Source of the DNA: a virus
Length of the DNA stretch: 38,542 nucleotides
Direction: 5' to 3' (one strand)
Virus record (IMG/VR): IMGVR_UViG_3300045256_000082
Location: 1 to 38,542 of that record
Position 1 is the first letter of the stretch, and each line of letters begins with the position of its first letter. Below are positions 435-30,632 of this stretch, one piece after another. The notes beneath the pieces were generated by a model. The model did no database searches. It was not told the origin of the DNA and saw only the letters and a program-made list of their open reading frames with translations. Made by a program: the position numbers and the translations under genes.

Positions 435-782
435 TTATTGCGCGCCCATCTCCGATGGTCCGAGAATGGCCGTCACCAAAACCTGATCGTCGGCCATGCC
501 GCGCGTGTTGGGGCACTCCTTACGGGCGTCTTCCGCCGTGAGCCCAATTGCGCCGCACTTGATGCAACGACCGACTAGGGGCTTGCCCTTTTGATTGGTC
601 CGCTCAATCGCGTGACACGTCTTCTGCATTTCCAGTTTCCTCTTGTGGCGGGATCGTTTCTGTATCGCGCAGAGGTGTTCACGACACGCCGCGCGCCGGA
701 GCTTGTTGAACGCTAGAATGTCCTCTCGATGCCGGCGGTAGTAGCGCCTCTGTCGGGCGCGCTTCGCGGCGCTTCCCCTCAC
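435..782 (-). CDS. Small basic zinc-ribbon protein, function unknown
   Basis: A 115-residue protein starting at GTG, whose GTGA overlaps the stop of the upstream glycosyltransferase, so translation is probably coupled. The first 55 residues are very rich in Arg and Lys (RRYYRRHRED), resembling the basic N-termini of small phage DNA-binding proteins. A CxxC with a later Cys (RCIKCG, then KECP) in the second half may bind zinc. No HNH catalytic set is visible, so I do not call it a nuclease. It is the last gene before the leftward terminator. A nucleic-acid-binding role is an inference. Confidence 0.65.
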   Translation of the reverse strand: MRGSAAKRARQRRYYRRHREDILAFNKLRRAACREHLCAIQKRSRHKRKLEMQKTCHAIERTNQKGKPLVGRCIKCGAIGLTAEDARKECPNTRGMADDQVLVTAILGPSEMGAQ

Positions 783-1687: not shown

Positions 1688-1726
1688 TTTTTGCCCCTCA
1701 AACTTGTCCACAGCAGTGACCTTTTC

Positions 1727-2685: not shown

Positions 2686-3003
2686 GACCTGTTGGCCTAG
2701 CTTGACGAACGCGGCGGTGTGCTGTGTCTCGTGGTGGTCGATCCGAACTTCCTTCTCGTACAGGTGTACCATCTCATGCGCCATGACACGCATCAGCATG
2801 TCGGTCGACCCCACGGTGTATTCCGAGATTGCGATGATGTGCTGACCGTCGATGCAGTCATACCAACCGAACAGCGTCCGGCTCTTGATCACGCGCCACG
2901 CGATGTCCTCTGACTCCGGCAGGTTCCAGCGATGGAAGGGCGGCGTCGTGCGAAGATAATCGTACGCCGCCGCAAGCGTTTCGCACGTCAGGGGCAGGCT
3001 CAT
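2650..3003 (-). CDS. SprT-like zinc metalloprotease (zincin)
   Basis: A 117-residue protein with the zincin motif HEMVH at residues 76-80 and a third likely zinc ligand at His95 (ETQHTAAF), as in SprT/Spartan-like proteins. Those enzymes cleave proteins on DNA, but the substrate here is unknown. I chose the ATG at 3003 because its ATGA overlaps the stop of the DNA polymerase, so the two are translationally coupled. It is shorter than cellular SprT and has no C-terminal zinc ribbon. Its last 36 bases overlap a gene on the other strand. Confidence 0.8.
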   Translation of the reverse strand: MSLPLTCETLAAAYDYLRTTPPFHRWNLPESEDIAWRVIKSRTLFGWYDCIDGQHIIAISEYTVGSTDMLMRVMAHEMVHLYEKEVRIDHHETQHTAAFVKLGQQVSRVHCFDPKAF

Positions 3004-5063: not shown

Positions 5064-5071
5064 TTCCTACA
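5064..5071 (-). promoter_or_regulatory. TGTAGGAA element overlapping the polymerase start
   Basis: On the minus strand TGTAGGAA is directly followed by the polymerase ATG. It contains the TAG stop of the upstream gene, and its AGGA can serve as ribosome site. A protein bound here, on DNA or mRNA, could control polymerase synthesis; that part is inference. Confidence 0.45.
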
Positions 5072-5450
5072 CAGCGGTCAAAATAAAAGACAAAGCCGCG
5101 TCGAAAGAGTCGAGAACAGCATGGCTGTGATACCTCAACCATGGGCTGACGGAAGCCCCTTTCTTCGCCACCACGACAACCAACTTTCCAGCGTTGAAAG
5201 CGAGAAGCACTTCCATACTGGTGCCAACGCTTGGCTTGTCATAATTGACGAGAATCACGTCACTGTTCGCGATATCAATTTTGTCGAATTCAACAATCTC
5301 ATCCACGCACTGATCCTCGCGCCCGCGATAATCGCGCCGCATCGGGTCCAGTGTTTTCCCTGACCACTTCGCCTTTACTAGCTCGCGCCAATCTTTGCAC
5401 TCGTCATCAGTGCACCCATTGATTGGCCCGCAAAGGTAGATGGTTTTCAT
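5067..5450 (-). CDS. Nucleoside 2-deoxyribosyltransferase-like protein
   Basis: A 127-residue protein. The N-terminal IYLCGPI, the DIANSDVILVNYDKPS stretch and GTSME, where Glu80 would be the catalytic nucleophile, match the nucleoside 2-deoxyribosyltransferase superfamily. These enzymes swap or remove the base of deoxynucleosides. The start at 5450 has a good AGGAGA ribosome site. It lies between the DpdA-like gene and the polymerase, and a second member of the same fold is at 6950-7321. The substrate is unknown; base exchange, nucleoside hydrolysis or salvage are possible. Confidence 0.8.
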   Translation of the reverse strand: MKTIYLCGPINGCTDDECKDWRELVKAKWSGKTLDPMRRDYRGREDQCVDEIVEFDKIDIANSDVILVNYDKPSVGTSMEVLLAFNAGKLVVVVAKKGASVSPWLRYHSHAVLDSFDAALSFILTAV

Positions 5451-5464
5451 CTTTCTCTCCTGTT

Positions 5465-6181
5465 TTAGGCAAGCATGCACATCATCGTGATGCGCGCTGT
5501 CCACTCCGCAGCTTCGCGCCAATCATTCTGGTTTCGACCGTTTCGCCGGGCGGCGAAGGACCAAGCCATGCTGTCGGCGCTATGAAGAAGATTGATTACG
5601 GTGGCGCTGGTTAGGGCTGTTATCTTGACGCCAAACCCATGCAGCAACAGGTCTGGCCGTTTGCTCTTGATCGCAACCAGAATGCTTTCGATAGTCCCTA
5701 CGTTCGCGTTCCGCTTACAAACAGAACCGACACCCACATACATCCCAGGCTTAAGCCGATCCTCGTATTGATCGATATGATCGAGATAGTCGACCACCTC
5801 GTAGCCCTGCAGAACCAGCATGATGTAGGTGCGCGGCACGAGCGGCAGCAAGGCGTCATACCGCTCGATCGTTCGGCGCTGATGTTCTCGAACGGACAAA
5901 CCCGTCTTCGCTACGATCCACGGCTCGCACATCCAATCCTGTGAAACAGCCGCGACTAAACCGGAGCCCGGGTATGACCACCGATTGATCTCAGCCGCGT
6001 ACTCACCCACGCCATGGCGATACTTCCCGTGCGTGGCGATTTCCGTGAACGCGCCAGAGTCCATGATCCATTCGCGTGCTTGGATGGGCTTCTTTCGGTC
6101 CCGCAGCCGGTTTACCGATATGAAAGCTCTGTCAAAGTGCCCTGCATCGGATGGCTGATGCAGCCCGGTGTAGAACAGCAT
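5465..6181 (-). CDS. dpdA: DpdA-like DNA-guanine transglycosylase (7-deazaguanine DNA modification)
   Basis: A 238-residue protein resembling phage DpdA, a relative of tRNA-guanine transglycosylase that replaces guanine in DNA with a 7-deazaguanine base. Features seen: MDSGAF at 40-45, QDW at 81-83, QGYEVVDYL at 125-133, VGVGSVCKR at 149-157, HGFGVK at 181-186 and SADSMAW at 201-207. In DpdA phages this modification blocks host restriction enzymes. No preQ0-synthesis genes (FolE, QueD, QueE, QueC) are in the window, so the precursor would come from the host or from genes outside. It follows the diphosphohydrolase gene by 8 bases. The ribosome site is weak. Confidence 0.85.
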   Translation of the reverse strand: MLFYTGLHQPSDAGHFDRAFISVNRLRDRKKPIQAREWIMDSGAFTEIATHGKYRHGVGEYAAEINRWSYPGSGLVAAVSQDWMCEPWIVAKTGLSVREHQRRTIERYDALLPLVPRTYIMLVLQGYEVVDYLDHIDQYEDRLKPGMYVGVGSVCKRNANVGTIESILVAIKSKRPDLLLHGFGVKITALTSATVINLLHSADSMAWSFAARRNGRNQNDWREAAEWTARITMMCMLA

Positions 6182-6189
6182 GCGGCCGA

Positions 6190-6780
6190 CTATCTGGCCC
6201 CTCGCGGCTTCGACAAGCTCAGATCGCGTTCAAGTTCTTCCTGCAGCAGCGCGAGCGCGCGCCATGCGAGCTGCGCCGAATGCCGGTTGCCGTCCTGGTC
6301 GAAGCCGCCGCGTTCGGTCAGGTGACGCGCGATGCAGTCGGCGTGATCCATCGACTTGCCGCGCGCCCAATGCAGCGGTTGGCCGGGGTTGTGCTTCTCA
6401 TTCCCGCGATGGCTGATGTTGGAAACTGAAGCGAGCGCGTCGGGGAAATAGTCAAGCAGGCCGGAACACATCGGCATGAGCTTGCGCAAGTCGCTGTCGG
6501 TGTCGAGCAAACGCTTTGGCGGGACTTCTTCGCCGCCGTAGCTATGCGCCAACTCGGGCGCCTTCCCGGCTTGGCGTTCGGCTTCGCGTTGCTCATCAAA
6601 ACGGTCGATTGTCTTCTGTGAAGGCATGTGATTGGTCCACCAAGTGAGTTCGGAGCGGTCGATTTCGACCAGCGTTCCGGGCGGCATGATCGAGCCGTCC
6701 GGGTACATTCCGGCCATCGCGCAGATCAGTTCGTATTGGCGTTCGCGGGTCACGCGGTGTTGCCCTTGTTGTGGTTCCAT
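6190..6780 (-). CDS. dATP/dGTP diphosphohydrolase-like protein (DUF5664 type)
   Basis: About 196 residues. The C-terminal half (KHNPGQPLHWARGKSMDHAD, then RHLTERGGFDQDGNRHSAQ and AWRALALLQEELE) is the helical, His/Asp/Glu-rich domain annotated as dATP/dGTP diphosphohydrolase N-terminal domain in phages. It would alter the purine dNTP pool during replication. The ATG at 6780 has GAGGA upstream; a GTG at 6753, overlapping the previous stop as GTGA, is an equally possible start. It lies directly before the DpdA-like gene, consistent with a nucleotide and DNA-modification cluster. The exact nucleotide handled cannot be told from sequence. Confidence 0.8.
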   Translation of the reverse strand: MEPQQGQHRVTRERQYELICAMAGMYPDGSIMPPGTLVEIDRSELTWWTNHMPSQKTIDRFDEQREAERQAGKAPELAHSYGGEEVPPKRLLDTDSDLRKLMPMCSGLLDYFPDALASVSNISHRGNEKHNPGQPLHWARGKSMDHADCIARHLTERGGFDQDGNRHSAQLAWRALALLQEELERDLSLSKPRGAR

Positions 6781-6947
6781 CGCAGCGCTTCCTCTGCAGC
6801 TCGCCGCAAGTCCGCCATGCGCCCGCGCAGCGCTTTCCGTTGGCGCCACCCTTCGAGCGTCGAGAGATCACACGCGGCGATCTGCGCGTGCGTATCGATG
6901 ATCTCTTTGAACAGCGGCGGGATACGCTGCGGGGCGTTGGTGAACAT
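6750..6947 (-). CDS. Small helical hypothetical protein
   Basis: A 65-residue protein, mostly helical and charged (WRQRKALRGRMADLRRAAEEAL), with no recognised family. Its ATG lies two bases after the stop of the deoxyribosyltransferase-fold gene, and its end overlaps the start of the diphosphohydrolase-like gene, so it sits in one tightly packed operon. A helper or oligomerisation role is possible but nothing in the sequence shows it. Confidence 0.6.
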   Translation of the reverse strand: MFTNAPQRIPPLFKEIIDTHAQIAACDLSTLEGWRQRKALRGRMADLRRAAEEALRWNHNKGNTA

Positions 6948-8952: not shown

Positions 8953-9024
8953 GACCGGGGGCGGGGTTCGAACCCGCACATGCGCCTTATCACTGCGCTG
9001 CTCTACCTGTTGAGCTACCCCGGT
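8953..9024 (-). tRNA. tRNA-Ile (anticodon GAT)
   Basis: A full cloverleaf on the minus strand: acceptor stem ACCGGGG/CCCCGGT (7 bp), D stem GCTC/GAGC with a GG-containing loop, anticodon loop GTGATAA with GAT at 34-36, and T arm GCGGG-TTCGAAC-CCCGC. The anticodon stem has four pairs and an A-G mismatch next to the loop, and position 32 is G. CCA is not encoded. It reads ATC codons, which are frequent in these genes, so a supply role is unlikely to be the only reason; resistance to host anticodon cleavage is another possibility. Confidence 0.85.
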
Positions 9025-14356: not shown

Positions 14357-16285
14357 ATGACATCCGACGTCCAAAACGCGCGGCTTGATGCGGCGCTCTC
14401 ACTTGCGCGTAACGGCTTCAAAATCTTTCCTATCGAACCCAACAGCAAGGTGCCGGCAATCAAGAACTGGCAGACATTGGCCAACGATAACCCGGACTTA
14501 ATTAGTAAATGGTGGGTTGACGAATTCCCCGGCGCCAACATCGGGATCAGCACCGAAGGCTTGTGCGTTATCGACGTCGACCCACGCAACGGGGGGCAAG
14601 GATCGTGGGACGCGATCATGCTGGCGGAAGACGCACCCGATACGGCGACGCAGCAAACGCAGAGCGGCGGCGTTCACCACATCTACAAGCTACCAGATGG
14701 ATTAACCGTTCCTAACAGTCGCTCGAAGCTTGGCCCGGGCATCGATATCAAATCGGCCGGCGGCTACATCGTGGCGCCCGGCAGCGAGATCGACGGGCGG
14801 CCTTATCGATGGTTCAAAGGCTTCGAGGGCGACAAGCTCGCCATGGCGCCACAATGGCTGCTCGATCAGGCGCGAGCCCCGCGGCAGCGCACGAGCGCGA
14901 GCGGGCAGCGCGTCGCGGATGAAAGCACCGAAGCTGTGGCCATGGCCACCGACTATCTATGGAATCGCGCACCGCGCGCCGAGCAGGGCAATCGCGACAA
15001 CACGGCATTCGCCGTTGCCGCAAAGCTGTTCGATTATGGATTATCTGAAACGAGCGCATGGCAAATGTTGTGCGCGTGGAACGACGCGCGATGCGAGCCA
15101 CCGCTTGAGGATCACGACGTCGATCGCATCATTGAGAGCGCGCAGAAGAACCGGACGCGTGCAATCGGGGCGGCAAGCCCCAACGCGCCGGGCTTCGAAG
15201 CGGTCGAGATCAGGCCGCGGTCTGAAGTCCAAAATGCAAAATCAGCCCACAGTGTGACAGTGTGGGAGCACGCGCTCGCTGCCGCCGACAAGGCAATCAC
15301 GCACGCGGGCGACCCGCTCATTACGGGTGTGCTCGACAGGGGCACAATGAGCGTGTTGTACGGGGAATCGGGATCGGGCAAGACCTTCGTGGCGCTCGAC
15401 ATGGCGGCGCACATCAGCGGCGGCCAAGAGTGGAACGGGCGCAAGGCGCGACAGGGCGCGGTGCTCTATGTGGCGGCCGAAGGCGGGCGGGCGATCTACA
15501 AGCGCTTTGCCGCGATCAAGAAGAAAACGCCGGAGCTGCTGCAGCGGCTCTATGTGGTGCGCCTTGATGTTGATCTCGTGCACGATCGCAAGCACGTCAA
15601 CCTTCTGGTCGACGCCGCAAAACAGGTTGCCGCGCACGCCAGAGCTCCAGTTGAGCTGGTCGTAATAGACACGCTGTCTAGGGCGCTCGCTGGCGGCGAC
15701 GAGAACAGCCCCGTCGACATGGGGCACTTGGTCAAGTCGCTTGATGCAATCCGCAGCGCGACCGGCTCGCATGTGATGGTGATCCACCACAGCGGCAAGA
15801 ATGCCGCCCGGGGCGCCCGTGGGCACAGCCTGTTGCGCGCAGCGACCGACACGGAGATCGAGGTTAAGAAGAAGGTCATGCGCGCCACCAAGCAGCGCGA
15901 CCTTGATACCGACTTCGAGATGGCGTTCAAGCTGATACCGCTGCAGATCGGCGAGCGCGACGGGGACCGTATCACGAGCTGCACCGTCGAATGGCGAACC
16001 GTGACGGAGGCGGACGACGACCCGGCGCCGCTCTCGCCCGAACTCGTGCGCCTCAAAGGCGCGATACTGGCGGCACTGCCGCCCGGCGTCATGGAGTTTA
16101 CTTGGGCCGATCTGGTTAATAAACTGCCTGCGGAGTTCGTAGGCATCGGAAAAGCATCGGAAGCGCAGCGGAAAGCGTTCAAGCCCTGGAGGGACAAGCT
16201 CGTTTCCGGTGGTCACCTATCGGAAATGCCCGGAAAACGCTGGCTTGTGATAGCATCGGCAGCATCGGAAGACGATGAAAACTAG
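14357..16285 (+). CDS. Bifunctional primase-polymerase / RepA-like helicase
   Basis: A 642-residue replication protein. Residues 11-170 are a prim-pol domain (acidic pair in CVIDVDPRNGG at 70-80, GGVHHIY at 104-110, GIDIKSAGGYIVAPGS at 128-143). Residues about 190-265 form a helical primase C-terminal region. Residues 300-520 are a RecA-type ATPase with Walker A GESGSGKT (336-343), Walker B LVVIDTL (434-440) and HHSGK (477-481). It should make primers and unwind DNA for the family A polymerase. The linker carries GFEAVEI (279-285), shared with the nuclease and the ssDNA-binding protein. A helical C-terminal domain of about 90 residues follows the ATPase. Confidence 0.92.
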   Translation: MTSDVQNARLDAALSLARNGFKIFPIEPNSKVPAIKNWQTLANDNPDLISKWWVDEFPGANIGISTEGLCVIDVDPRNGGQGSWDAIMLAEDAPDTATQQTQSGGVHHIYKLPDGLTVPNSRSKLGPGIDIKSAGGYIVAPGSEIDGRPYRWFKGFEGDKLAMAPQWLLDQARAPRQRTSASGQRVADESTEAVAMATDYLWNRAPRAEQGNRDNTAFAVAAKLFDYGLSETSAWQMLCAWNDARCEPPLEDHDVDRIIESAQKNRTRAIGAASPNAPGFEAVEIRPRSEVQNAKSAHSVTVWEHALAAADKAITHAGDPLITGVLDRGTMSVLYGESGSGKTFVALDMAAHISGGQEWNGRKARQGAVLYVAAEGGRAIYKRFAAIKKKTPELLQRLYVVRLDVDLVHDRKHVNLLVDAAKQVAAHARAPVELVVIDTLSRALAGGDENSPVDMGHLVKSLDAIRSATGSHVMVIHHSGKNAARGARGHSLLRAATDTEIEVKKKVMRATKQRDLDTDFEMAFKLIPLQIGERDGDRITSCTVEWRTVTEADDDPAPLSPELVRLKGAILAALPPGVMEFTWADLVNKLPAEFVGIGKASEAQRKAFKPWRDKLVSGGHLSEMPGKRWLVIASAASEDDEN

Positions 16286-16408: not shown

Positions 16409-16876
16409 ATGCCCCGGCTCACCCCCCGCGCCTCCACATTCTTGGACGACGTACTGAAGTGGGCCGCGGGTGCGCCGCTGCGGCGGGAACACAGTCTCGA
16501 GACTCGGGCCAAGATGTCTCGCGCGCATATCCTCCGGCGACAGAGTGCCGCGCGGCGTGCGGAGTGGATAGCGGCAAAGAAGGCGTGGCGCCGTCGAATA
16601 GCCCCGCCGCTAGGTGAGCGTATGATTGACAAGATATGCGCGACCTGGCTGCAGAGTGGCCACGCCTGGCACACGTCGGGAGACGTCGTTAACCTCACGG
16701 GGTTGGATGGCCGCTTGGCGCGCAACACGCTTGCCGCGATGGTTCGCAACGGGTTTGCAGAGCGGCGCCGCATTCCGGGCTTCAAGCCCGCACGCTTCAC
16801 AAAGGAGCCGCGGTATCTGTACCGATTGACCGATCGAGGCCGTGCGCTAGGGGATCTGATTAGGCGCTTGAAATGA
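16409..16876 (+). CDS. Winged-helix protein with NUMOD3-like N-terminal motif
   Basis: A 155-residue basic protein. Residues 26-42 (RREHSLETRAKMSRAHI) resemble NUMOD3, a DNA-binding motif best known from homing endonucleases. Residues about 70-150 form a winged helix (SGDVVNLTGLDGRLARNTLA, NGFAERRRI, YLYRLTDRGRALGDLIRRL). No nuclease domain is visible. It is the only clear helix-turn-helix regulator candidate in the window apart from the TerS and phosphoesterase N-termini, so it might bind the TGTAGG sites; that is inference. The ribosome site is weak. It ends at a terminator. Confidence 0.7.
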   Translation: MPRLTPRASTFLDDVLKWAAGAPLRREHSLETRAKMSRAHILRRQSAARRAEWIAAKKAWRRRIAPPLGERMIDKICATWLQSGHAWHTSGDVVNLTGLDGRLARNTLAAMVRNGFAERRRIPGFKPARFTKEPRYLYRLTDRGRALGDLIRRLK

Positions 16877-16905
16877 AAAAGCCCCACGGGGTTGCCGTGG
16901 GGCTT
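16876..16905. terminator. Convergent intrinsic terminator
   Basis: An 11-bp stem AAGCCCCACGG/CCGTGGGGCTT (16879-16905) with a 5-base loop. On the minus strand it is followed by TTTTTC, a standard intrinsic terminator for the small-gene array. On the plus strand the tail is TTATCGGTCATTTT, weaker. It separates the primase operon from the convergent array. Confidence 0.85.
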
Positions 16906-16910
16906 ATCGG

Positions 16911-17099
16911 TCATTTTGGGGACACTGGTAAATGGCTTTGTTCGCCGCGGTCATTATCCCAAACTTGGATGTGAGCCGCGTCGTCTTCCATGCTGTTCGC
17001 AACATCGCAAGCCGCGCGGGCTAGTGCTTCCACCATGTGCGCCACGGTTTCCGGGGTGCTGGCTGAAACCTCAACATAGAGCGCATGTGTGATTGTCAT
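16911..17099 (-). CDS. Small array protein, 62 residues
   Basis: The last gene of the leftward small-gene array. The protein has a beta-alpha N-terminus (TITHALYVEVSASTPETVAH, then MVEALARAACDVANSM) and an acidic second half. No family is recognised. The start has GGAGGA within the shared leader repeat. A terminator follows six bases after the stop. Confidence 0.65.
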   Translation of the reverse strand: MTITHALYVEVSASTPETVAHMVEALARAACDVANSMEDDAAHIQVWDNDRGEQSHLPVSPK

Positions 17100-17102
17100 A
17101 GT

Positions 17103-17173
17103 TCCTCCGCTATCCCCGCAACGTGTGTCGCGGCTACTGCAGCGCCTTGCGGCGCTGCAGAGTGTCGCGTCAC
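17103..17173 (-). repeat. Start-associated leader repeat, unit 1
   Basis: The repeated leader of the small-gene array in mRNA sense: the stop TGA within TGACGCGACA, a 10-bp hairpin (17137-17160, CTGCAGCGCC-GCAA-GGCGCTGCAG), a second small stem CCGC/GCGG, then GCGGGGATAGCGGAGGA before the start codon. The loop is a GNRA tetraloop on the mRNA strand. Two stem pairs differ from the other units and remain paired. Confidence 0.85.
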
Positions 17174-17256
17174 TTAGGCCAGTAGAGCACTAGCAGGTAG
17201 ATGATAAACCCTACCGACAGGAAGTAGCCGCCAAGCGCTTTCGCTACATGAATCAT
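17170..17256 (-). CDS. 28-residue membrane peptide
   Basis: A frame of 28 residues: a short basic start (MIHVAKAL) and one hydrophobic segment (YFLSVGFIIYLLVLYW) ending PK. It begins seven bases after the stop of the 66-residue gene, without its own leader repeat, so translation is probably coupled. Its TGA stop is the first codon of leader unit 1, the same position used by the other array genes, which supports it as a real gene. A host-membrane-directed role would fit. Confidence 0.55.
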   Translation of the reverse strand: MIHVAKALGGYFLSVGFIIYLLVLYWPK

Positions 17257-17262
17257 GCGGCG

Positions 17263-17463
17263 TTAGCGCTTTGCGATCTGTTCGACATAGGCGCGGATGG
17301 CAGTCCCTAGCTGCTCGTCATTGTCCCCTGCGGCGATTCGCTGGTGGCCGAATGTGAACACTTTCGGGATATCCAACACGCTGATTTGCATGCCTTTGCA
17401 CGTAGCGTTGTAGGCACGGTCAATCCGCGTGTCAGCTGCCTTCTGTGCTTTCGTCTTTCTCAT
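17263..17463 (-). CDS. Small array protein, 66 residues
   Basis: A basic protein of unknown family: an Arg/Lys-rich N-terminus (RKTKAQKAADTRIDRAYNAT), a beta-like middle and a helical C-terminus (GTAIRAYVEQIAKR). The start has GGAGGA within leader unit 2. It is followed at once by the 28-residue membrane peptide. Confidence 0.65.
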   Translation of the reverse strand: MRKTKAQKAADTRIDRAYNATCKGMQISVLDIPKVFTFGHQRIAAGDNDEQLGTAIRAYVEQIAKR

Positions 17464-17469
17464 AGGCTA

Positions 17470-17537
17470 GTCCTCCGGTTCCCCGCGATGTGTCGCGGCT
17501 ACTGCAGCGGCCGGAGCCGCTGCAGAGTGTCGCGTCA
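17470..17537 (-). repeat. Start-associated leader repeat, unit 2
   Basis: Same organisation as unit 1. The hairpin at 17502-17525 has stem CTGCAGCGGC/GCCGCTGCAG and loop UCCG on the mRNA strand closed by C-G, a UNCG tetraloop. The second stem is longer here (CCGCGA/TCGCGG). The stop codon of the 95-residue gene is the first codon of the unit. Confidence 0.85.
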
Positions 17538-17822
17538 CTTGTGACCGATAGTCCGTCTCGGGAACGGGTGCTTGCTCTCTGGCGTGCGAACTTTCATTCG
17601 ATTGCCGCCACCATAGGAAAGCGACCACCCATCCGCCTCTAGCTTAGTCAGCAGCATGAGGCGGAATTGTCGGATATCGTCAACGATAGCGCCTTGCACC
17701 ACGTGTTCATTGATTTCCGTATCAAGTGTGGTCATCAATCGGCCCAGTCGAGAGCACACGGCGCGATCTGTGCTTGACAGTCCCGTATTCCAGGGCACGC
17801 AATAGCGCGTGGTCTTTGGCAT
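17535..17822 (-). CDS. Small array protein, 95 residues
   Basis: A protein of unknown family with a long helical middle (DDIRQFRLMLLTKLEADGW) and a basic C-terminus (NRMKVRTPESKHPFPRR). The ATG has GGAGGA six bases upstream in leader unit 3. The stop lies at the first codon of leader unit 2. Array position suggests an early, host-directed role; there is no direct evidence. Confidence 0.65.
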   Translation of the reverse strand: MPKTTRYCVPWNTGLSSTDRAVCSRLGRLMTTLDTEINEHVVQGAIVDDIRQFRLMLLTKLEADGWSLSYGGGNRMKVRTPESKHPFPRRTIGHK

Positions 17823-17826
17823 GGTA

Positions 17827-17895
17827 GTTCCTCCGTTATCCCCGCATTGGCGCGGCTACTGCAGCGGCTCGCGCCGCTGCAGTGTGTCGCGTCAA
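17827..17895 (-). repeat. Start-associated leader repeat, unit 3
   Basis: The hairpin at 17859-17882 has a perfect 10-bp stem with loop GCGA on the mRNA strand, a GNRA tetraloop. A second stem CCGC/GCGG has a six-base loop. GGGGATAACGGAGGA leads to the start codon. Nearly identical to unit 4. Confidence 0.85.
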
Positions 17896-18128
17896 TTGGA
17901 AGTGTCGCCGAGCTTTCGCGCGTCACTAACGAGCGTTAGCAAGGCGGGGCCGTCAAAGTCGTGGGTATCAAGCCGCTTGCCGGATTCGTCGTATGCTTCC
18001 AAGTCAACCAAATCGCCGTTGCTGGCGAATTCAGCGGACAGAGAATGCAAGTCGTCTGGCAAGCCGTGGCACGGCCACGATCGCTTGAACGCGTCGATTG
18101 CGTCACATCGCAACGTGTACCAAGTCAT
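17892..18128 (-). CDS. Small array protein, 78 residues
   Basis: An acidic protein of unknown family (LHSLSAEFASNGDLVDLEAY, DTHDFDGPALLTLVSDARKL) with two Cys near the N-terminus. The acidic character is common among phage proteins that mimic DNA or inhibit host enzymes, but this alone proves nothing. The start follows GGAGGA in leader unit 4. Confidence 0.65.
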   Translation of the reverse strand: MTWYTLRCDAIDAFKRSWPCHGLPDDLHSLSAEFASNGDLVDLEAYDESGKRLDTHDFDGPALLTLVSDARKLGDTSN

Positions 18129-18130
18129 CA

Positions 18131-18199
18131 GTCCTCCGTTATCCCCGCATTGGCGCGGCTACTGCAGCGGCTCGCTTGCCGCTGCAGTGTGTCGCGTCA
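18131..18199 (-). repeat. Start-associated leader repeat, unit 4
   Basis: The hairpin at 18162-18187 has the same 10-bp stem as unit 3 and a six-base loop AAGCGA on the mRNA strand. The second stem and GGGGATAACGGAGGA are conserved. The first codon is the TGA stop of the upstream 119-residue gene. Confidence 0.85.
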
Positions 18200-18556
18200 G
18201 TGCTCCGTCTCGCTTGGCGAGTCGTCATCACTTGGAGGAAATTGGCGCGCGTCGTCCAAAGCCTGTTGATAGGTTTCGAACGGGCCAATAGGCTCGCTAT
18301 TGGGCAAGCAGCCCGGAAAGCAAAACCAATAGAAGTAGCCGCCCTGTATGCTCTCCGCCTCAATCATGGCATCGAACATTTTCTCAAGCACTCCCCGATT
18401 CATGGATGCTAAGCGGTACTCGTGCTTTTTCATCCACTCACGAATCAAGTCCTCATCCCGTTCGGCTACTTCTCGCGCCGAGAGTTGAAAGACTTCGATA
18501 TCGGGCAACGCGTGCGGGTCGCTCGCGCGTTTAGGGTCGCTGTATTCTTGGCCCAT
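18197..18556 (-). CDS. Small array protein, 119 residues
   Basis: An acidic protein of unknown family: a charged helical N-terminal half (REVAERDEDLIREWMKKHEY), an aromatic stretch with two Cys (GGYFYWFCFPGC) and an acidic tail (FPPSDDDSPSETEH). I start at the ATG at 18556, which follows GGAGGA in leader unit 5; a longer frame upstream only reads through the repeat. It is the largest gene of the array. Confidence 0.65.
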   Translation of the reverse strand: MGQEYSDPKRASDPHALPDIEVFQLSAREVAERDEDLIREWMKKHEYRLASMNRGVLEKMFDAMIEAESIQGGYFYWFCFPGCLPNSEPIGPFETYQQALDDARQFPPSDDDSPSETEH

Positions 18557-18566
18557 AGTGTCGTAT

Positions 18567-18633
18567 CCTCCGGTTCCCCGCGATGTGTCGCGGCTACTGC
18601 AGCGGCCGGAGCCGCTGCAGGGTGTCGCGTCAC
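18567..18633 (-). repeat. Start-associated leader repeat, unit 5
   Basis: The hairpin at 18597-18620 has the 10-bp stem with UCCG loop (UNCG type) on the mRNA strand, like unit 2, and the longer second stem CCGCGA/TCGCGG. TGACGCGACA is present at its beginning, but no convincing gene ends there, suggesting that a module was lost in front of it. Confidence 0.8.
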
Positions 18634-18641
18634 TGAGGTGC

Positions 18642-18689
18642 GGATGGCGCGGCAAGGGACTTGTTCACAGCGGCCCCGCCGCGCCATCC
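18642..18689. repeat. 12-bp inverted repeat between array modules
   Basis: GGATGGCGCGGC and GCCGCGCCATCC are perfect 12-bp arms around a 24-base loop, between leader unit 5 and the 63-residue gene. No T-run follows on either strand. The position is where a small gene would be expected in the array. Confidence 0.5.
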
Positions 18690-18699
18690 CGAGACGCCT

Positions 18700-18891
18700 T
18701 TACGCGTCCCGCCAGCACTCAACTAAAATCGAGTGCTGAACCTCTGGAGACAGCTCAACCCATGGCCTATCGCCCACCGCGTCGAATGCGGGATCAACCG
18801 CACCCTCGACGCGACACGCTTCGCACTGCTCAAAGCCAGAGCAAGCGCAGAGCTTGGCGAGATCAGCACAATGGAAAGCTTTCTTTGGCAT
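18700..18891 (-). CDS. Small Cys-rich array protein, 63 residues
   Basis: The first gene of the array. Four Cys in the first half (HCADLAKLCACSG, QCEACRVEG) probably bind a metal. The second half is acidic (VELSPEVQHSILVECW). The ATG at 18891 follows GGAGGA in the divergent leader unit 6; longer upstream extensions read through the leader. The family is unknown. Confidence 0.65.
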   Translation of the reverse strand: MPKKAFHCADLAKLCACSGFEQCEACRVEGAVDPAFDAVGDRPWVELSPEVQHSILVECWRDA

Positions 18892-18900
18892 GGTGTTAGT

Positions 18901-18960
18901 TCCTCCGTTGTCCGCATTTCCGCGGCTAAAGCGGCGCGAGTTGTGCGCCGCTCTGTGTCG
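18901..18960 (-). repeat. Start-associated leader repeat, unit 6 (divergent)
   Basis: The most divergent unit: 8-bp stem AGCGGCGC/GCGCCGCT (18930-18952) with a seven-base loop, second stem CCGC/GCGG, then GGACAACGGAGGA. The CTGCAG part of the stem is lost, but pairing is kept by other bases. It is the first leader after the array promoter region. Confidence 0.75.
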
Positions 18961-19018
18961 TGGAAACGAACAGAGGGTTTCGATCCGATTCACAATGTCA
19001 AACAGCGGCAGTGGCGCG

Positions 19019-19073
19019 ACATTGCGCCCTGCTTGTAGGTCGTGTCAAGCAGATTTGTCCTCTATTTCCTACA
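19019..19073 (-). promoter_or_regulatory. Leftward promoter and operator region of the small-gene array
   Basis: On the minus strand TGTAGGAAATAGAGGA (19058-19073), TTGACA (19043-19048) overlapped at its end by CCTACAA (19033-19039), and a weak CAATGT 18 bases downstream (19019-19024). The order differs from the other promoters because the first repeat lies upstream of -35. The site is also just upstream of the divergent terminase gene, so one protein could control both. Confidence 0.55.
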
Positions 19074-19102
19074 ACGTTGTTTTGCTGCTACAATTGGGCG
19101 CC

Positions 19103-20320: not shown

Positions 20321-21613
20321 ATGCCGCAGCCCACCCCGTACGAGCCGGATTTTACGTTCTGGTCGATCGAAGCCGGTCAAAGTTGGTTCCCGGGGCACCA
20401 GCTCGACCATGAATTCGCGAACCTCGACATCACGCTCACTGAAATTCTCGACAATCTGGAGCTGATTCAGCGCGACGACGGCGAAGTCGCGAACAAGACC
20501 ATTGGCCGCGACCAGCTCAAAGACGATTTGTGGCTGACGATCCAAGCGCTGAGCGCGCAGAACGCGCAAGAGGTGCTTGACGCGATCGACGCGCTCTCTT
20601 TGCTCAAAGCCGATATCAACTCGCCAACGTTTACGGGCGACCCGAAGGCGCCGACACCCTCGCCGGGCGACAACGACACGTCGATCGCGACGTCGGCGTT
20701 CGTCACGGCCGCGGTCGTCGCCGGCATCGCGACTCGGCAGCCGCTCGACGCGGATTTGACCGCTCTCGCGGCCTTGGCCACGACCGGATTCGCGGCGCGG
20801 ACGGCAGCAGACACGTGGGCGCTGCGCTCGCTCACCGCGCCGGCGGCCGGTTTCACGATTACGAACCCCGCCGGCGTCGCCGGCAACCCGACTTTCGTTC
20901 TCGCGAATGATCTCGCCGCGCTCGAAGCGCTCGCGTCCAACGGTTTCGCAGAGCGTACCGGCGTCGACACTTGGCAGATCACCGGATTCACTGGCACCGG
21001 TTCCGTGGTGCGCGCTTCTGCCCCCACCCTTACCGGCACGACCGTTATCTCAATCAATACGGCGGTTACGCGCCTCGATTATCTGCAGCTCACGCCGACA
21101 GATTGGGGCTCTAACAAACCTTATCTCGCGTTCACGAAAGGGATGGCGCCCGAGACGTGGGAAATTGTGCTGTGGGACGGCACCGACAGCAACGGCATCG
21201 TCAACGTCATTACGGGCACCGGCAACCTTCAGAACAACGGCAATAACGTCTGGCACCTTGGCAATCTCGCGCAGCCGGCACAGCTCAATGTCGAAGATCA
21301 AACGCTCGCCGGCGGCGCTCGTGTCACTGAAAAAGATCTTGGCACGATCAGCTCCGGCACCGTGACGCCTGATCCCGGCGACCGGCCGCTACAGAAATAC
21401 ACGAACGGCGGCGCGCACACGCTCGCGCCCGGCTCCAACGTCGGCGCGTATCTGCTGACGATCGTCAACAACGGATCGGCCGGCGCCATCACGACGAGTG
21501 GATGGACGAAGGTCGCCGGCGACTCGTTCACCACCACTAACGGGCACAAATTCCGCTGTCATGCCAGCATCACCGGTGACGGCTCCGTGCTCATCGTGCA
21601 GGCGATGCAGTAA
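20321..21613 (+). CDS. Tail fibre protein with shared N-terminal attachment module
   Basis: A 430-residue fibre-type protein. The first 70 residues (PYEPDFTFWSIEAG, NLELIQRDDGEVAN) match the N-terminus of the second fibre at 22375, so they probably anchor both to the tail. Next come Ala/Thr-rich low-complexity repeats (FVTAAVVAGIATRQPLDADL, LAALATTGFAARTAADTWA and a later FAERTGVDTWQITGFTG). The C-terminal part is beta-rich (NNGSAGAITTSGWTKVAGDS). Repeats of the type ATTGFAARTAADTWA are typical of phage fibre shafts. The stop overlaps the next start as TAATG. Confidence 0.85.
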   Translation: MPQPTPYEPDFTFWSIEAGQSWFPGHQLDHEFANLDITLTEILDNLELIQRDDGEVANKTIGRDQLKDDLWLTIQALSAQNAQEVLDAIDALSLLKADINSPTFTGDPKAPTPSPGDNDTSIATSAFVTAAVVAGIATRQPLDADLTALAALATTGFAARTAADTWALRSLTAPAAGFTITNPAGVAGNPTFVLANDLAALEALASNGFAERTGVDTWQITGFTGTGSVVRASAPTLTGTTVISINTAVTRLDYLQLTPTDWGSNKPYLAFTKGMAPETWEIVLWDGTDSNGIVNVITGTGNLQNNGNNVWHLGNLAQPAQLNVEDQTLAGGARVTEKDLGTISSGTVTPDPGDRPLQKYTNGGAHTLAPGSNVGAYLLTIVNNGSAGAITTSGWTKVAGDSFTTTNGHKFRCHASITGDGSVLIVQAMQ

Positions 21614-22374: not shown

Positions 22375-23598
22375 ATGGCACAACCGATCCCGTACGACCG
22401 GGAATTCTCGTTCACTAACTTCCAGACGGCGAACCCACTGGCAACCCTGCCGGCGGATCAGCTCGACGCTGAACTGAATTCCGTTAAGCAAACTCTCGAC
22501 ACCGTGCTCGCCAACCTGGAACTCATCCAGCGCGACGACGGCGCGATTGCGAACCTGTCCGTTGGCGCCGAGCAGCTCGCCGCAGAGGTTCAGGTCGGCA
22601 TCAGCACGCCGCGCGTTTGGGCGACCGCGACGCAATACAAGATTTCGCCGATCGACACGGTTTTCCAAGGAAGCGCCTTCTACAGGGCCAAGGCAGATCA
22701 CACGAGCGGCGTCTTCGCGACCGATCTCGCGGCCGGCAAGTGGGAATTGATCGTTAACCTCGCCAGCGTGCCGCTGGTTAACGCGTCACAGATCGCGGTT
22801 TCGCCAACCGGCGGGATCAGCGCCGTGACGGTGCAAGCCGCGCTCGCCGAAGTCGACGCCGAGAAGGCGCCGCTATCCCACACGCACGTAGCGACGCAGA
22901 TCAGCGACAGTACGGCGATCGGCCGCGCGCTGTTGACCGCTGCGGACGCTGCAGCTGCCGGCGCGCTACTGCCGGGCTTGCCGCCGGGCATCGTCTTTCC
23001 TTACGCCGGCACATCGGCACCGGCCGGTTATCTGCTATGCGGCGGCCAAGCGGTCAGCCGCGCGACGTTCGCGGCGCTGTTCCTGGTCATCGGTACGACG
23101 TACGGCTCCGGCGACGGCGCGACCACGTTCAACGTGCCCGATCTGCGCGGGCGCGTGGTCGCTGGCAAAGACGACATGGTGCAAGGGTCGGCGAACCGGC
23201 TCACGAACCAAGCCGGCGGACTCGACGGTGATATCTTGGCCGCGGTTGGCGGCAGTGAAGGCGCGACGATTACGCAGGCGCAATTGCCGAGCTGCACTTT
23301 TGCGAATTCCGGTATCTCGGTTGGCGAGACGCCGCACCGGCATTTCGAATTCAGCACCGACCAAAACGTCAATACCACTCTCACCAACGCCAATCGGCCA
23401 CAGGTGGCCGGGTTCTTCGGTGGTGATGGCGCGACCAATAACGCTGCCGGCACCGCTGATTGCACGATCGGCCTTTCGTCGGCGGCGACCGCTGGCGTCA
23501 CAATCACCGCGCAAGGCAGCGCAGCATCGGGAGGCTCAGGCGCCGCGCACAACAACGTGCAGCCGACAATCATCCTGAACTACATCATCAAGACCTAA
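22375..23598 (+). CDS. Second tail fibre, with phage collar domain
   Basis: A 407-residue protein. Residues 1-70 (PYDREFSFTNFQ, NLELIQRDDGAIAN) repeat the attachment module of the first fibre. A small domain with aromatic residues (ATQYKISPIDTVFQGSAFYR) follows, then a collar domain (GIVFPYAGTSAPAGYLLCGG, FNVPDLRGRVVAGKDD) and a C-terminal part ending in VQPTIILNYIIKT, as in collar-type tail proteins. It probably contacts the host surface. There is no normal ribosome site; see the adjacent promoter. Confidence 0.88.
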   Translation: MAQPIPYDREFSFTNFQTANPLATLPADQLDAELNSVKQTLDTVLANLELIQRDDGAIANLSVGAEQLAAEVQVGISTPRVWATATQYKISPIDTVFQGSAFYRAKADHTSGVFATDLAAGKWELIVNLASVPLVNASQIAVSPTGGISAVTVQAALAEVDAEKAPLSHTHVATQISDSTAIGRALLTAADAAAAGALLPGLPPGIVFPYAGTSAPAGYLLCGGQAVSRATFAALFLVIGTTYGSGDGATTFNVPDLRGRVVAGKDDMVQGSANRLTNQAGGLDGDILAAVGGSEGATITQAQLPSCTFANSGISVGETPHRHFEFSTDQNVNTTLTNANRPQVAGFFGGDGATNNAAGTADCTIGLSSAATAGVTITAQGSAASGGSGAAHNNVQPTIILNYIIKT

Positions 23599-23608
23599 CG
23601 GAGGGACC

Positions 23609-24628
23609 ATGGCGCTAAGCGATGCTGACTTGGTGCAGCTGGTTGAGCGGCATGGGAGCGTGCGCGCAGCGGCGAGAGCCGCAGGCATCGCGCGGTCGTC
23701 GATCCAAGAGCGGTACAGGAAGCTGTCCGCCCGCGGCGCTGTTAAGCTCCCTGAGCCTGAAATCGAGTACCCCAACCTTCCCGAGAGCGAGCTGCCAGTT
23801 GAGAAATTGATTGACCATGCGTGCCAGCAATTCACGGCTGCAAACAAGGCGCGCGAAGCGCGTCGGTGGATGGAAATCAAGATCAAAAAGAACGAGCCCA
23901 TCGGCGTCTGTTTCATGGGCGACCCCCATATCGACAACGCCGGAACGAACTGGCCGCTGCTGCGCGAGCACATCACAATCTTGGAGACTACTCCTGGTCT
24001 CTACGCGATTGGTGGAAATGATATCACAGATAATTGGGTCGGCCGACTCATGCGACTCTACGCCGACACGAAGATGTCGAAGAAACAGGCGTGGAAGATC
24101 GTCAAATGGCTGCTGAAGGACTCCGATGTTAAGTGGCTTGTTCACATTTTGGGGAATCATGATGCTTGGGGAGATGGCCCGTACATCTTCAAAGCGAATG
24201 CAGGCGTTGTACCGGTCGAAGATTGGTCAGCGCGCTTTCAACTAGTCTTCCCGAACGATACGCGCGTTCGAATCCACATGTCGCACGACTTCCCCGGCAC
24301 GTCGCAGTGGAACCATCTGCACGGCGCGCAGAAACAAGCGCAGTGGGGCGAGCAGGCGCACATCTACGCGTGCGCCCATAAGCACTGTTGGGCGGTGCAC
24401 GAGGAAGAACACGCTCACCGGGGCTACACGTACCATCTGATCCGGGCGCGTGGCTACAAGTTCATTGACAATTTCGCCGACGTGCACGGCTTCGGCTCAC
24501 AGAAGCGCGGCGCGAGCATCACGGCAATTATCGACCCGCACGGAGGCGGGCAAGAACCGGGCATTCGTTGCTTCCCCGATCTGGAGGAAGCCGCAGAATT
24601 CCTAACGTGGAAGCGCAGCAGAAAGTAA
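23609..24628 (+). CDS. HTH-fused calcineurin-like metallophosphoesterase
   Basis: A 339-residue protein. Residues 5-40 form a helix-turn-helix (LVERHGSVRAAARAAGIARS) similar to small-terminase and NinH-type motifs. The rest is a metallophosphoesterase: GDPHID (104-109), GGND (135-138), LGNHD (181-185), His226 in MSHD and AHKH (256-259). These bind two metals and cleave phosphoesters; DNA is a likely substrate given the HTH. The gene lies directly before the large terminase and overlaps it, so a packaging or end-processing role is possible. Confidence 0.85.
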   Translation: MALSDADLVQLVERHGSVRAAARAAGIARSSIQERYRKLSARGAVKLPEPEIEYPNLPESELPVEKLIDHACQQFTAANKAREARRWMEIKIKKNEPIGVCFMGDPHIDNAGTNWPLLREHITILETTPGLYAIGGNDITDNWVGRLMRLYADTKMSKKQAWKIVKWLLKDSDVKWLVHILGNHDAWGDGPYIFKANAGVVPVEDWSARFQLVFPNDTRVRIHMSHDFPGTSQWNHLHGAQKQAQWGEQAHIYACAHKHCWAVHEEEHAHRGYTYHLIRARGYKFIDNFADVHGFGSQKRGASITAIIDPHGGGQEPGIRCFPDLEEAAEFLTWKRSRK

Positions 24629-26247
24629 ACCCGCACGCTCTGCAGCTGAAGGCGGTTCAGCGGCTCATCGCGATCAAGGAAGCGCGAGAGCATATGCTGC
24701 CGTATCTGCAGCTGACGATGCCGGATGCGAATGACCCGGACGATGCGACCAAAAGCCGGTTCATTCTCACTCCGCAAGCGCGTCTGCTCGCCGAGATTTG
24801 GGAGAAATGCGTCAGTCGCAAGCTGAAGCGCGTCGCCGTCTCGATCGGCCCGCAATTTGGCAAGAGTCAAATCATCTCGCGCGTCGGGCCGGCTTGGACA
24901 GCCGGCAAAGACCCGTCGCAGCACATGATCTTGGGGAGTTACAACGATGACTTTGCCCACGAGTTCGGCACCGAAGTCCGCAACATCGCGACCAGCCCGG
25001 TATCTAAACAGGTCTTCCCGGCTCTGGAGTTCTCGAAGGGAGGCGCGGCGAAAAACCTGCTCATTACATCGCGTGGGGGCAAACTGGCCTTTGTGGGCGT
25101 CGGTGGTTCCGGCACTGGCAAACCTGCGGACGGCTTTGTTGTCGACGACCCATATCGTAACGCCGAAGATGCTAATTCAGAGAGCTATCGGGAACGTGTT
25201 TGGAATTGGTTCAATGGCGTTGTGTTCTCGCGATGCCACGACGATACCTTTATCTTTATCGTTCATACGCGATGGAACCTCGACGACCTAATCGGCCGGC
25301 TTTGCGATCCGAAGCACCCGGAGCGCAACGGCAAGTATAAGGGCCACGCTGAGCGTTGGACGTACATCAACCTGCCGGCGGTCGTCGACGATCCGGCGCT
25401 CGCCAAGGCGTTAGGGCTTACGCTCGAAACGCCGACCGACCCGCTCGTGATCGAGCAGTTTGGGCGCAAGCCCATGTCGTCGCTCTGGCCCGGGCGCAAG
25501 TCGCTGCCCCTTCTGGCCGAAGCCAAGGCACTCGACGCTTACACCTTTAACAGCCTCTACATGGGCTCGCCGGCGCCCGACGACGGCGACTATTTCAAAA
25601 AGGAATATCTCGTCGAGTACAATCGCGACGAGCTGCCGAAAGAGCTGCGCTACTATGGATCTTCTGACCATGCGGTCAGCACCAAGCAGCGCGCCGATTT
25701 TACGTGCATCGGGTGTGTCGGTATCGACGAGAACGAAGACATCTGGGTTCTTCCCGATCTCGTTTGGGAACGGATGGACACACTTCGGACCGTCGAAGAA
25801 CTGATCAACCAATTCAAGACCCACAAGCCAGGTCTTTGGTGGCTTGAAAACGAACTCATATCGAAGTCGTTCGGGCCGTTCCTCATCAAGCGCATGATCG
25901 AGGACAAGGTTTACACGACAACGCTCGACCCGATCACGCCGTCTAAGGACAAGCGCGTGCGCGCTCGCGCCATCCAAGGCCGGATGCAGATGCGCAAGGT
26001 GCGCTTTCCGCGCTTCGCTCCGTGGTGGCAGCGCGCCCGCGGGCAGTTGCTCATGTTCGACAACGGGCCGAACGACGACTTTGTGGATTTTCTCTCTAAC
26101 GTCGGTCAGGGGCTCTTGAAAGAACTCGGAGCTCCGAAAGCAGCACTGCCCGACGAGCTTCCCACCAACACGATCGGCGCGATCCTCCGTCGCGCCAAGT
26201 TCCGCGCAATGCAAGAGAAGCGCGTGAAAGCCACCGCAGGATGGTGA
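24607..26247 (+). CDS. terL: Terminase large subunit
   Basis: The motor and nuclease that cuts and packages the DNA, about 546 residues. Walker A is GPQFGKS (81-87), Walker B is FVVDD (177-181), and the coupling region is IVHTRW. The nuclease domain shows SSDHAVSTKQRADFT with Asp354 and LWWLENE with Glu414. The start is uncertain: GTG at 24607 overlaps the phosphoesterase end by 22 bases; TTG at 24568 or ATG at 24694 are alternatives. The portal starts two bases after its stop. Confidence 0.93.
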   Translation: MEAQQKVNPHALQLKAVQRLIAIKEAREHMLPYLQLTMPDANDPDDATKSRFILTPQARLLAEIWEKCVSRKLKRVAVSIGPQFGKSQIISRVGPAWTAGKDPSQHMILGSYNDDFAHEFGTEVRNIATSPVSKQVFPALEFSKGGAAKNLLITSRGGKLAFVGVGGSGTGKPADGFVVDDPYRNAEDANSESYRERVWNWFNGVVFSRCHDDTFIFIVHTRWNLDDLIGRLCDPKHPERNGKYKGHAERWTYINLPAVVDDPALAKALGLTLETPTDPLVIEQFGRKPMSSLWPGRKSLPLLAEAKALDAYTFNSLYMGSPAPDDGDYFKKEYLVEYNRDELPKELRYYGSSDHAVSTKQRADFTCIGCVGIDENEDIWVLPDLVWERMDTLRTVEELINQFKTHKPGLWWLENELISKSFGPFLIKRMIEDKVYTTTLDPITPSKDKRVRARAIQGRMQMRKVRFPRFAPWWQRARGQLLMFDNGPNDDFVDFLSNVGQGLLKELGAPKAALPDELPTNTIGAILRRAKFRAMQEKRVKATAGW

Positions 26248-29588: not shown

Positions 29589-30632
29589 ATGCCTTTCTCA
29601 GTTGAGCAGATCGAGAACATCGCCAACGCGGCGATCGAGATGCACTTCCAGCGCGGGACTATCACGTCTCAGACATTGCAGGACAAGCCCCTGCTCGACG
29701 CGCTGATGGCGAAGACCAGGAACTTCCCGGGCGGCAAAGACAATATCACTGTCCGCGTGAAGGGCGTTTACACGACCCAAATCCAGGGCTTCGTGAACGA
29801 CGATCAGGTCACGTACGGCAACCCCAACAACATCAAGCGCGCCGTCTACCCGTGGAAGCTCATTCACGCGGGCATTCAGTTCACGAAGCACGAGCTTCTG
29901 CAGGACGGCATCCGCGTCACTGATACCACGACCGGCGCCTCGACTCCCGTCGCTTCCGACGCCGAGAAAATCCAGCTCGCCAACATCATGGACGACAAGC
30001 TGGAAGACATGGACGAAGGCACCAACCGGGGCATGAACACCATGTTCTGGAACGACGGCACTCAGGACCCGAATTTGGTCCCGGGCGTTCGTTCGTTCGT
30101 GGTCGACAACCCGACTGCCGGCCTCGTTGTCGGCGGCATCGATCAGAACGCGAACCCGTGGTGGAGGAACCGCGCGGTTCTCGGTATCTCGACCGCTGAC
30201 GCGAACGCACAGCTCGTCGTGCAGACCTTGCAGAAAGAGTATCGCCAGCTGAGGCGCTTCGGAGGCAAGCCGACTCTCTGGCTTGCGGGCTCTGACTTCA
30301 TGGATTGGTTCGAGCGCGAGCTGCGGGCCAAAGGCAACTATACGCTCGAAGGCTGGGCAAAGTCCGGCAAGATCGACGCGTCGGTCGCCGACATCGCCTT
30401 CAAGGGCAACTCCATCCAGTACGACCCGACGCTCGACGACCTTGGGCTTCAGAAGCGTCTGTTTGTGCTCGACCCGCGTCACATCTTCCCGATGGTGATC
30501 GAGGGCGAGAATATGCAGCAGCACAAGCCCGCGCGACCGGAAGACCGCTACGTCTTCTACCGCGCCGTCACGTGGGCCGGCGGACTGGTGTGCAATCAGC
30601 GCAACTGTAACGGCGTTTACGGCATCGCGTAA
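29589..30632 (+). CDS. Major capsid (coat) protein
   Basis: A 347-residue protein following the scaffold. The sequence has mixed alpha-beta composition expected of an HK97-fold coat: an N-terminal helix (VEQIENIANAAIEMHFQR), an extended region with a conserved-looking AVYPWKLIHAGIQFTKHEL, and a C-terminal beta part (RLFVLDPRHIFPMVIEGENM). It has no scaffold domain or protease. Family assignment rests on gene order and size. Confidence 0.85.
   Translation: MPFSVEQIENIANAAIEMHFQRGTITSQTLQDKPLLDALMAKTRNFPGGKDNITVRVKGVYTTQIQGFVNDDQVTYGNPNNIKRAVYPWKLIHAGIQFTKHELLQDGIRVTDTTTGASTPVASDAEKIQLANIMDDKLEDMDEGTNRGMNTMFWNDGTQDPNLVPGVRSFVVDNPTAGLVVGGIDQNANPWWRNRAVLGISTADANAQLVVQTLQKEYRQLRRFGGKPTLWLAGSDFMDWFERELRAKGNYTLEGWAKSGKIDASVADIAFKGNSIQYDPTLDDLGLQKRLFVLDPRHIFPMVIEGENMQQHKPARPEDRYVFYRAVTWAGGLVCNQRNCNGVYGIA

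Follow-up and report, generated by a model that had tools for sequence, protein, structure and literature searches.

What may be the role of a sequence that recurs, in recognizable form, in front of six small genes unrelated to one another? The question is raised by the IMG/VR virus record IMGVR_UViG_3300045256_000082, a tailed phage sequence analyzed here over its whole length of 38,542 bases (hereafter, the window), in which seven small leftward open reading frames (ORFs) form an array and six of them, g1 to g6, have a copy of the same leader in front. We found that the leader very probably acts at the RNA level, as judged from its paired changes. As for its function, the reading that we prefer, with a probability of about 0.45, is that of an element, common to these genes, for processing or insulation between cistrons, by analogy with the RNase III sites of phage T7. 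An initial annotation had noticed six leader units, and all of them were recovered by a covariance model and repeat analysis:

17103..17175, minus strand: leader U1, before g1; outer arm, GCAA loop, 7-bp mini-hairpin, Shine-Dalgarno (SD) sequence; its TGA is the stop of a 28-aa ORF
17471..17540, minus strand: leader U2, before g2; UCCG loop, 6-bp mini-hairpin; its TGA is the g3 stop
17829..17897, minus strand: leader U3, before g3; GCGA loop, 5-bp mini-hairpin; its TGA is the g4 stop
18132..18202, minus strand: leader U4, before g4; AAGCGA loop, 5-bp mini-hairpin; its TGA is the g5 stop
18566..18635, minus strand: leader U5, before g5; UCCG loop, 6-bp mini-hairpin; its TGA is not the g6 stop; 99% like U2
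18901..18968, minus strand: leader U6, before g6; divergent first copy in the predicted 5′ untranslated region, 5-bp mini-hairpin, without TGA

Leader anatomy and pairing

The six leaders score 63.5–78.2 bits with the covariance model and the next minus-strand match in the window 14 bits; as the model was built from the leaders themselves, it is this gap, and not the score, that is informative. Among short repeats, they rank as the strongest in the window. A count of perfect stems (10 bp or more, loops of 3–6 bases) gives nine entries there, with some hairpins entered for two loop sizes; 30 dinucleotide shuffles gave 0.5 on average and at most 3. A perfect 10–11-bp stem with a four-base loop is present in four of the five main copies, and the fifth has an 11-bp stem with a six-base loop. 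Single-strand folding z-scores of the leaders range from −2.7 to −3.9. No tandem repeats were found, and Rfam gave no family match for the leader even at E ≤ 1.

All leaders follow one order: outer arm, ACAC, inner 10-bp stem, AGC, CGCG arm, 3′ strand of the mini-hairpin, and SD. The predicted structure, with which the alternative mini-hairpin competes, consists of a lower stem of 7–8 pairs, the ACAC/AGC internal loop, and an upper stem of 9–10 pairs. The anatomy of a 10-bp hairpin, a mini-stem and a ribosome-binding site (RBS) proposed in the initial annotation was thereby borne out; it had overlooked the tetraloops, the constancy of the internal loop, and the second partner of the CGCG arm. 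The inner-stem loops of U1–U5 read GCAA, UCCG, GCGA, AAGCGA and UCCG, four of which are stable tetraloops of the GNRA or UNCG type, and the interchange of these two types on the same stem in four copies points to an RNA-level element. In U6, the inner stem differs in sequence and retains its pairing. Taking the inner stem and mini-stem together, 98.8% of the cells hold standard pairs and four inner-stem pairs are changed on both sides, values reached by 0–4 of 500 shuffles in a test that is weakened by kinship among the leader copies. The mini-hairpins of U1 to U6 (7, 6, 5, 5, 6 and 5 bp, with a four-base loop in every copy) differ in length by paired steps.

All six leaders share an identical ACAC/AGC internal loop, even U6, where both adjoining helices are altered. 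Constancy of a loop between helices that change with compensation is a pattern typical of protein-bound RNA, and hairpin operators ahead of start codons do occur in phages, e.g., that of T4 gp43 (PMC3014915). A phage or host RNA-binding protein that reads this loop and raises or lowers all six genes jointly is, therefore, a possible explanation, which we consider rather unlikely: no candidate RNA-binding protein was recognized among the window proteins scanned (several were left unscanned), and a second small structure separates the hairpin from the SD.

The CGCG arm has two mutually exclusive partners, either the upstream stop-codon region (the outer stem) or the downstream mini-hairpin, and the two pairings differ by about 0.4–2.4 kcal/mol in forced folds. 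The outer-stem pairings are GUGACGCG with CGCGACAC, UUGACGCG with CGCGCCAA, and UUUCCACG with CGCGGAAA. No arm pairs better with another partner than with its own, and among all permutations of the arms the observed assignment shares the top place (12 of 720, the lowest value attainable with arms that are near-identical). U6 carries compensated changes in both the inner and the outer stem. As a separate observation from a model fold of positions 18882–18976 (minus strand), CCUCUGUU upstream of U6 can pair with the SD region AACGGAGG, and the SD is predicted to be almost fully paired.

Two competing pairings so close in energy could constitute a ribosome-gated switch, in which a ribosome at the upstream stop would cover the outer arm, release the CGCG arm to form the mini-hairpin, and thereby couple initiation to translation of the preceding gene. 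The outer arm does hold a stop codon in four copies, and blocking the 5′ side in fold calculations shifts U1, U2, U5 and U6 to the mini-hairpin. Yet, U6 has no upstream gene and the TGA of U5 is not a used stop, SD exposure shifts in no single direction between the states, and nearest-neighbor energies are too inaccurate to prove bistability, all of which makes the switch improbable. We give no better odds to an extended version, a portable bistable RNA leader that fits between any stop and start and ties each exchangeable array gene either to translation of its neighbor or to a phage factor reading ACAC/AGC; if true, new genes would be controlled without regulation of their own.

We further examined the sequences flanking the stems, which had been described as shared by every unit. 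Upstream, TGACGCGACA is present in five of the six leaders, U6 having TCCACGACA instead. The proposed RBS sequence GGGGATAACGGAGGA is exact in U3 and U4 only; U1 has GGGGATAGCGGAGGA, one change away, U2 and U5 have GGGGAACCGGAGGA, and U6 has GCGGACAACGGAGGA. In turn, the TGA serves as the stop of the preceding gene, as had been supposed, in U1–U4, but not in U5 and U6: g6 already stops at a TAA (18700–18702) about 70 nt upstream of U5, where the TGA is nevertheless retained, and U6 has UCC where the other leaders have UGA. Since the TGA is kept in U5 without being used as a stop and gives way to UCC in U6, it seems to belong to the RNA element and to be exploited by genes, and does not look like a by-product of them.

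The same triplet is the core of a candidate that we rejected, a stop-codon readthrough signal made up of UGAC, a stable hairpin and an in-frame UAG. In U1, U2 and U3 the frame indeed continues from the TGA to a TAG behind the hairpin, but it is off by two bases in U4, the TGA ends no gene in U5 and is missing from U6, with the structure kept throughout; U4–U6 break this signal, and its probability is very low.

U2 and U5 are 99% alike from the stop-codon region to the SD, while their genes show no relation; this near-identity, together with that of U3 and U4, hints at copying of leaders inside this genome. Such recent copying would also suit a DNA-level element, i.e., palindromes that a DNA-binding protein recognizes or recombination sites that shuffle genes, and comparable repeats of cluster K mycobacteriophages were read as DNA-binding sites by their authors (PMC3203893). 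However, the single orientation, the constant register to the SD, the stable RNA tetraloops, the asymmetric invariant internal loop and the mini-hairpin varying by paired steps all speak for RNA; a palindromic DNA site would give covariation too, but none of these five features, and we regard it as quite unlikely.

The array, its relatives and its phage

The features of the array are as follows:

16879..16905, minus strand: strong predicted intrinsic terminator at the array end, just past g1
16911..17099, minus strand: g1, 62 aa, without family match
17170..17256, minus strand: hydrophobic 28-aa ORF between g2 and U1, without a leader of its own
17263..17463, minus strand: g2, 66 aa, without family match
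17535..17822, minus strand: g3, 95 aa, without meaningful family match
17892..18128, minus strand: g4, 78 aa, of a family common to Rhizobium phage RHph_X2_30 and ten IMG/VR contigs
18197..18556, minus strand: g5, 119 aa, weak match to phrog_24597 (function unknown, E 7.7e-4)
18700..18891, minus strand: g6, 63 aa, at the head of the array
19020..19100, minus strand: putative, weakly supported promoter/operator region with TTGACA, GTAGGAAATAGAGGA and CCTACAA elements

Thus, the six short genes originally counted become seven with the leaderless 28-aa ORF. No promoter-like site was called inside the array on the minus strand, and the stretch upstream of U6 has elements in common with other putative promoters of the window. 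The gene order, the lack of an internal promoter call and the terminal terminator fit cistrons of one transcript, and the array is predicted to form a single operon, with a polycistronic message running from the putative promoter at about 19.03–19.10 kb to the terminator at 16.88–16.905 kb. The post-transcriptional control envisaged in the initial annotation agrees with this layout, as well as with the paired stem changes. The putative promoter/operator element (TTGAC, GTAGG-N4-GTAGG or GTAGGAAATAGAGGA, in many cases with ACCTACAA after it) is itself repeated at many likely starts of transcription units:

20048, 22335 and 28408, plus strand: repeated promoter/operator element
13258 and 5081, minus strand: repeated promoter/operator element
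8891, 9311, 19072, 1733 and 163, minus strand: related elements

The array genes have a third-position GC of 0.56–0.68, compared to 0.72–0.84 in the four core genes checked, which fits recent acquisition. Pfam, PHROGs and PADLOC yielded nothing informative for them, and the fold of g4, predicted with confidence (mean pLDDT 88), has no significant match in PDB or BFVD, so that the description of these genes as host-directed found no support. The g4 protein is 63% identical to that of RHph_X2_30 (Casjensviridae), the DNA being 80% identical over 105 bp, and the g4 relatives comprise this one isolate phage and the ten contigs. From their distribution we conclude that genes are exchanged between unrelated phages. 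None of the g4 relatives' loci holds a convincing leader; g4, therefore, seems to have met the leader within this lineage. We also considered whether insertion of the leader had truncated g4, whose RHph_X2_30 homolog is longer, and rejected this, as the homolog at locus L285 likewise ends at 78 aa.

We did not find the leader outside this record in IMG/VR, phage records or GTDB genomes, collections that may omit very near records. In IMG/VR, none of the 38 stretches matching GCTGCAGTAGCCGCG carried the inverted arm; no leader appeared among the matches listed for a first gapped pattern, and a second one gave 11 stretches, none of them leader-like. The four stretches from the GTDB pattern scan were not leader-like either. 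Exact-pattern scans overlook diverged leaders; the covariance model, run on related phages and the g4 loci, yielded only weak matches of about 8–16 bits. Blastn of the array returned only g4 matches from phages and nothing from plasmids.

The related phages were those with a large terminase (TerL) 56–65% identical in TerL alignment. Their loci contain no homolog of g1–g6 and nothing convincing for the leader model. In three of them, L202, L208 and L218, the array slot was inspected; the remaining ones were searched for the leader. In all three, the slot holds a leftward array of small genes, which are other genes and lack the leader hairpin; in L202 it is flanked by a homolog of ORF 16409-16876 and a TerS homolog, the same as in the window. 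A start-associated motif, TTGTCGA...AGAGAG, occurs there:

L202 2135-3030, minus strand: start-associated motif, repeated
L208 3285-3330, minus strand: start-associated motif
L218 3990-4035, minus strand: start-associated motif

Near the array end of L208 and L218, look-alikes of the 28-aa hydrophobic ORF stand in the same place (by eye; undetected by BLAST). Judging by these three relatives, the slot and the habit are retained, the genes and the leader not. Array content, thus, turns over between relatives, and g4 is spread over different phages, as expected of exchangeable genes; the idea that leader and gene move together as a module found no support, as the leader is confined to this record in the searches used and g4 relatives lack it.

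As for the phage itself, a megablast of 20 kb found no near record of the window in the phage collection. The nearest named match of an array gene is in a Sinorhizobium phage. The following genes mark the window as that of a tailed phage:

3000-5063: DNA polymerase A
14357-16285: Prim-Pol/helicase
24568-26247: TerL
29589-30632: major head protein

Other observations concern a family 2 glycosyltransferase gene close to the left end (779-1711, minus strand) and a tRNA-Ile (gat) gene (8953-9024, minus strand), the sole RNA of the window above the Rfam gathering score. A DpdA-like protein (PF23859, E 6.5e-43) is encoded within 5067-6849 (minus strand) next to a dATP/dGTP diphosphohydrolase N-terminal domain and a nucleoside deoxyribosyltransferase, possibly a DNA modification set of the 7-deazaguanine type. 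Two successive tail-fiber genes (20321-21613 and 22375-23598) have in common a repeated N-terminal region and the same promoter-like repeat upstream.

Possible processing or insulation at cistron junctions

RNase III sites of phage T7 consist of a helix, an internal loop and a helix of about two turns. The T7 early mRNA precursor is cut by RNase III at five sites to mono- and dicistronic messages (PMC4858673). The leader resembles them as a structured RNA between cistrons of a phage polycistronic mRNA, here a predicted one, and differs in being one near-identical element in front of six genes, with shorter stems and in an unrelated phage. Cleavage is the defining feature of the T7 sites.

In the processing or insulation model, the leader would be an element within a single polycistronic RNA, present at six gene starts, that folds into the 10-bp hairpin, the ACAC/AGC loop and a lower helix over the upstream stop-codon region, with the alternative mini-hairpin directly before a strong SD. 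The long hairpin and internal loop would mark the cistron junction for processing or protection, the agent being either host RNase III, as at the early sites of T7, or a different RNase. The upstream message would then end in a stable 3′ hairpin, the downstream one would have a standard RBS, each tiny gene would be translated and decay independently of its neighbors, and a new ORF placed behind a leader copy would be expressed like the rest.

Several points weigh against this model. With about 17–18 pairs and an internal loop, the stem is short compared to a canonical RNase III substrate. Several predicted folds, that of U6 most of all, leave the SD partly paired, which would fit regulation better than plain insulation. 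Random tails reach the outer-stem energy in 15% of cases for U1, 10% for U3 and 54% for U4; for U6 they rarely do so (1.3%), and it is U6 that bears most of the weight of the outer stem. Moreover, all the support is drawn from six copies of a single genome, which form few distinct groups, and no relative examined has the leader that would allow covariation to be compared across species. We nonetheless rank processing or insulation tentatively first because of the position of the leader, its helix-loop-helix design and the clean boundaries of the unit, from the stop region to the SD, followed by protein-mediated co-regulation and the ribosome-gated switch, with a DNA site appearing unlikely.

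Start-associated and intergenic repeats in other phages

The closest analogs named in the initial annotation were the start-associated sequences (SAS/ESAS) of cluster K mycobacteriophages, which are found at the RBSs of genes from various families, in many cases directly preceded by an inverted repeat (PMC3203893). Similar SAS/ESAS were found in Microbacterium phages of cluster EF, and 18-bp inverted repeats in cluster EG (PMC7302621). Like them, the leader is a phage-specific repeat at several RBSs and can include the upstream stop codon. The analogy of position stands, and the sequences are different, as claimed. The 13-bp SAS GGGATAGGAGCCC, even with up to two deviations, is absent from the leaders, which read GGGGATAACGGAGGA, GGGGATAGCGGAGGA, GGGGAACCGGAGGA or GCGGACAACGGAGGA (by eye). 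The ESAS is an imperfect 17-bp inverted repeat with a spacer of mostly 4–13 bp, while the leader has a near-perfect 10-bp stem with a loop of 4–6 nt, and only the relative position agrees. All leader copies, unlike SAS/ESAS, stand within one predicted operon. Departures among ESAS repeats give little support for RNA hairpins (PMC3203893), but those among the leaders support pairing: the stems covary, four tetraloops cap them, the internal loop is invariant, and a second pairing exists.

Repeats of cluster O mycobacteriophages (17-bp dyads, more than 30 copies, about one-third intragenic; PMC4351075) are likewise phage-specific, dyad-symmetric and in many cases intergenic, yet not closely linked to translation starts. 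We also observed nine copies of a 24-nt intergenic hairpin, GGACAGCAGTTNNNNCTGCTGTCC, on IMG/VR contig 3300036987_000008 (L275), mainly at 58502-66274. Several stand just upstream of an SD and ATG of different genes, as the leaders do; however, this hairpin is unrelated in sequence, the TerL is about 27% identical, there is no conserved mini-hairpin/SD block, and some copies do not precede genes. The contig offers a separate example of a hairpin repeated between genes. Beyond the SAS/ESAS group, no hairpin leader of the same design was found in the literature covered, which included few subscription journals. The leader appears akin to SAS/ESAS in position and to the T7 sites in design, is assigned to neither group, and is new in sequence.

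Arrays of tiny, fast-changing genes occur in many phages, and the puzzle is how a newly acquired ORF comes to be expressed promptly and properly. Here, a single RNA leader, whose own copies record paired changes, precedes unrelated genes of one predicted operon. It is a compact, directly testable case for the start-associated repeats known from several phage clusters, with signs that this one, at least, acts as RNA. Through such a leader, any newly acquired gene would probably be processed and translated alike.

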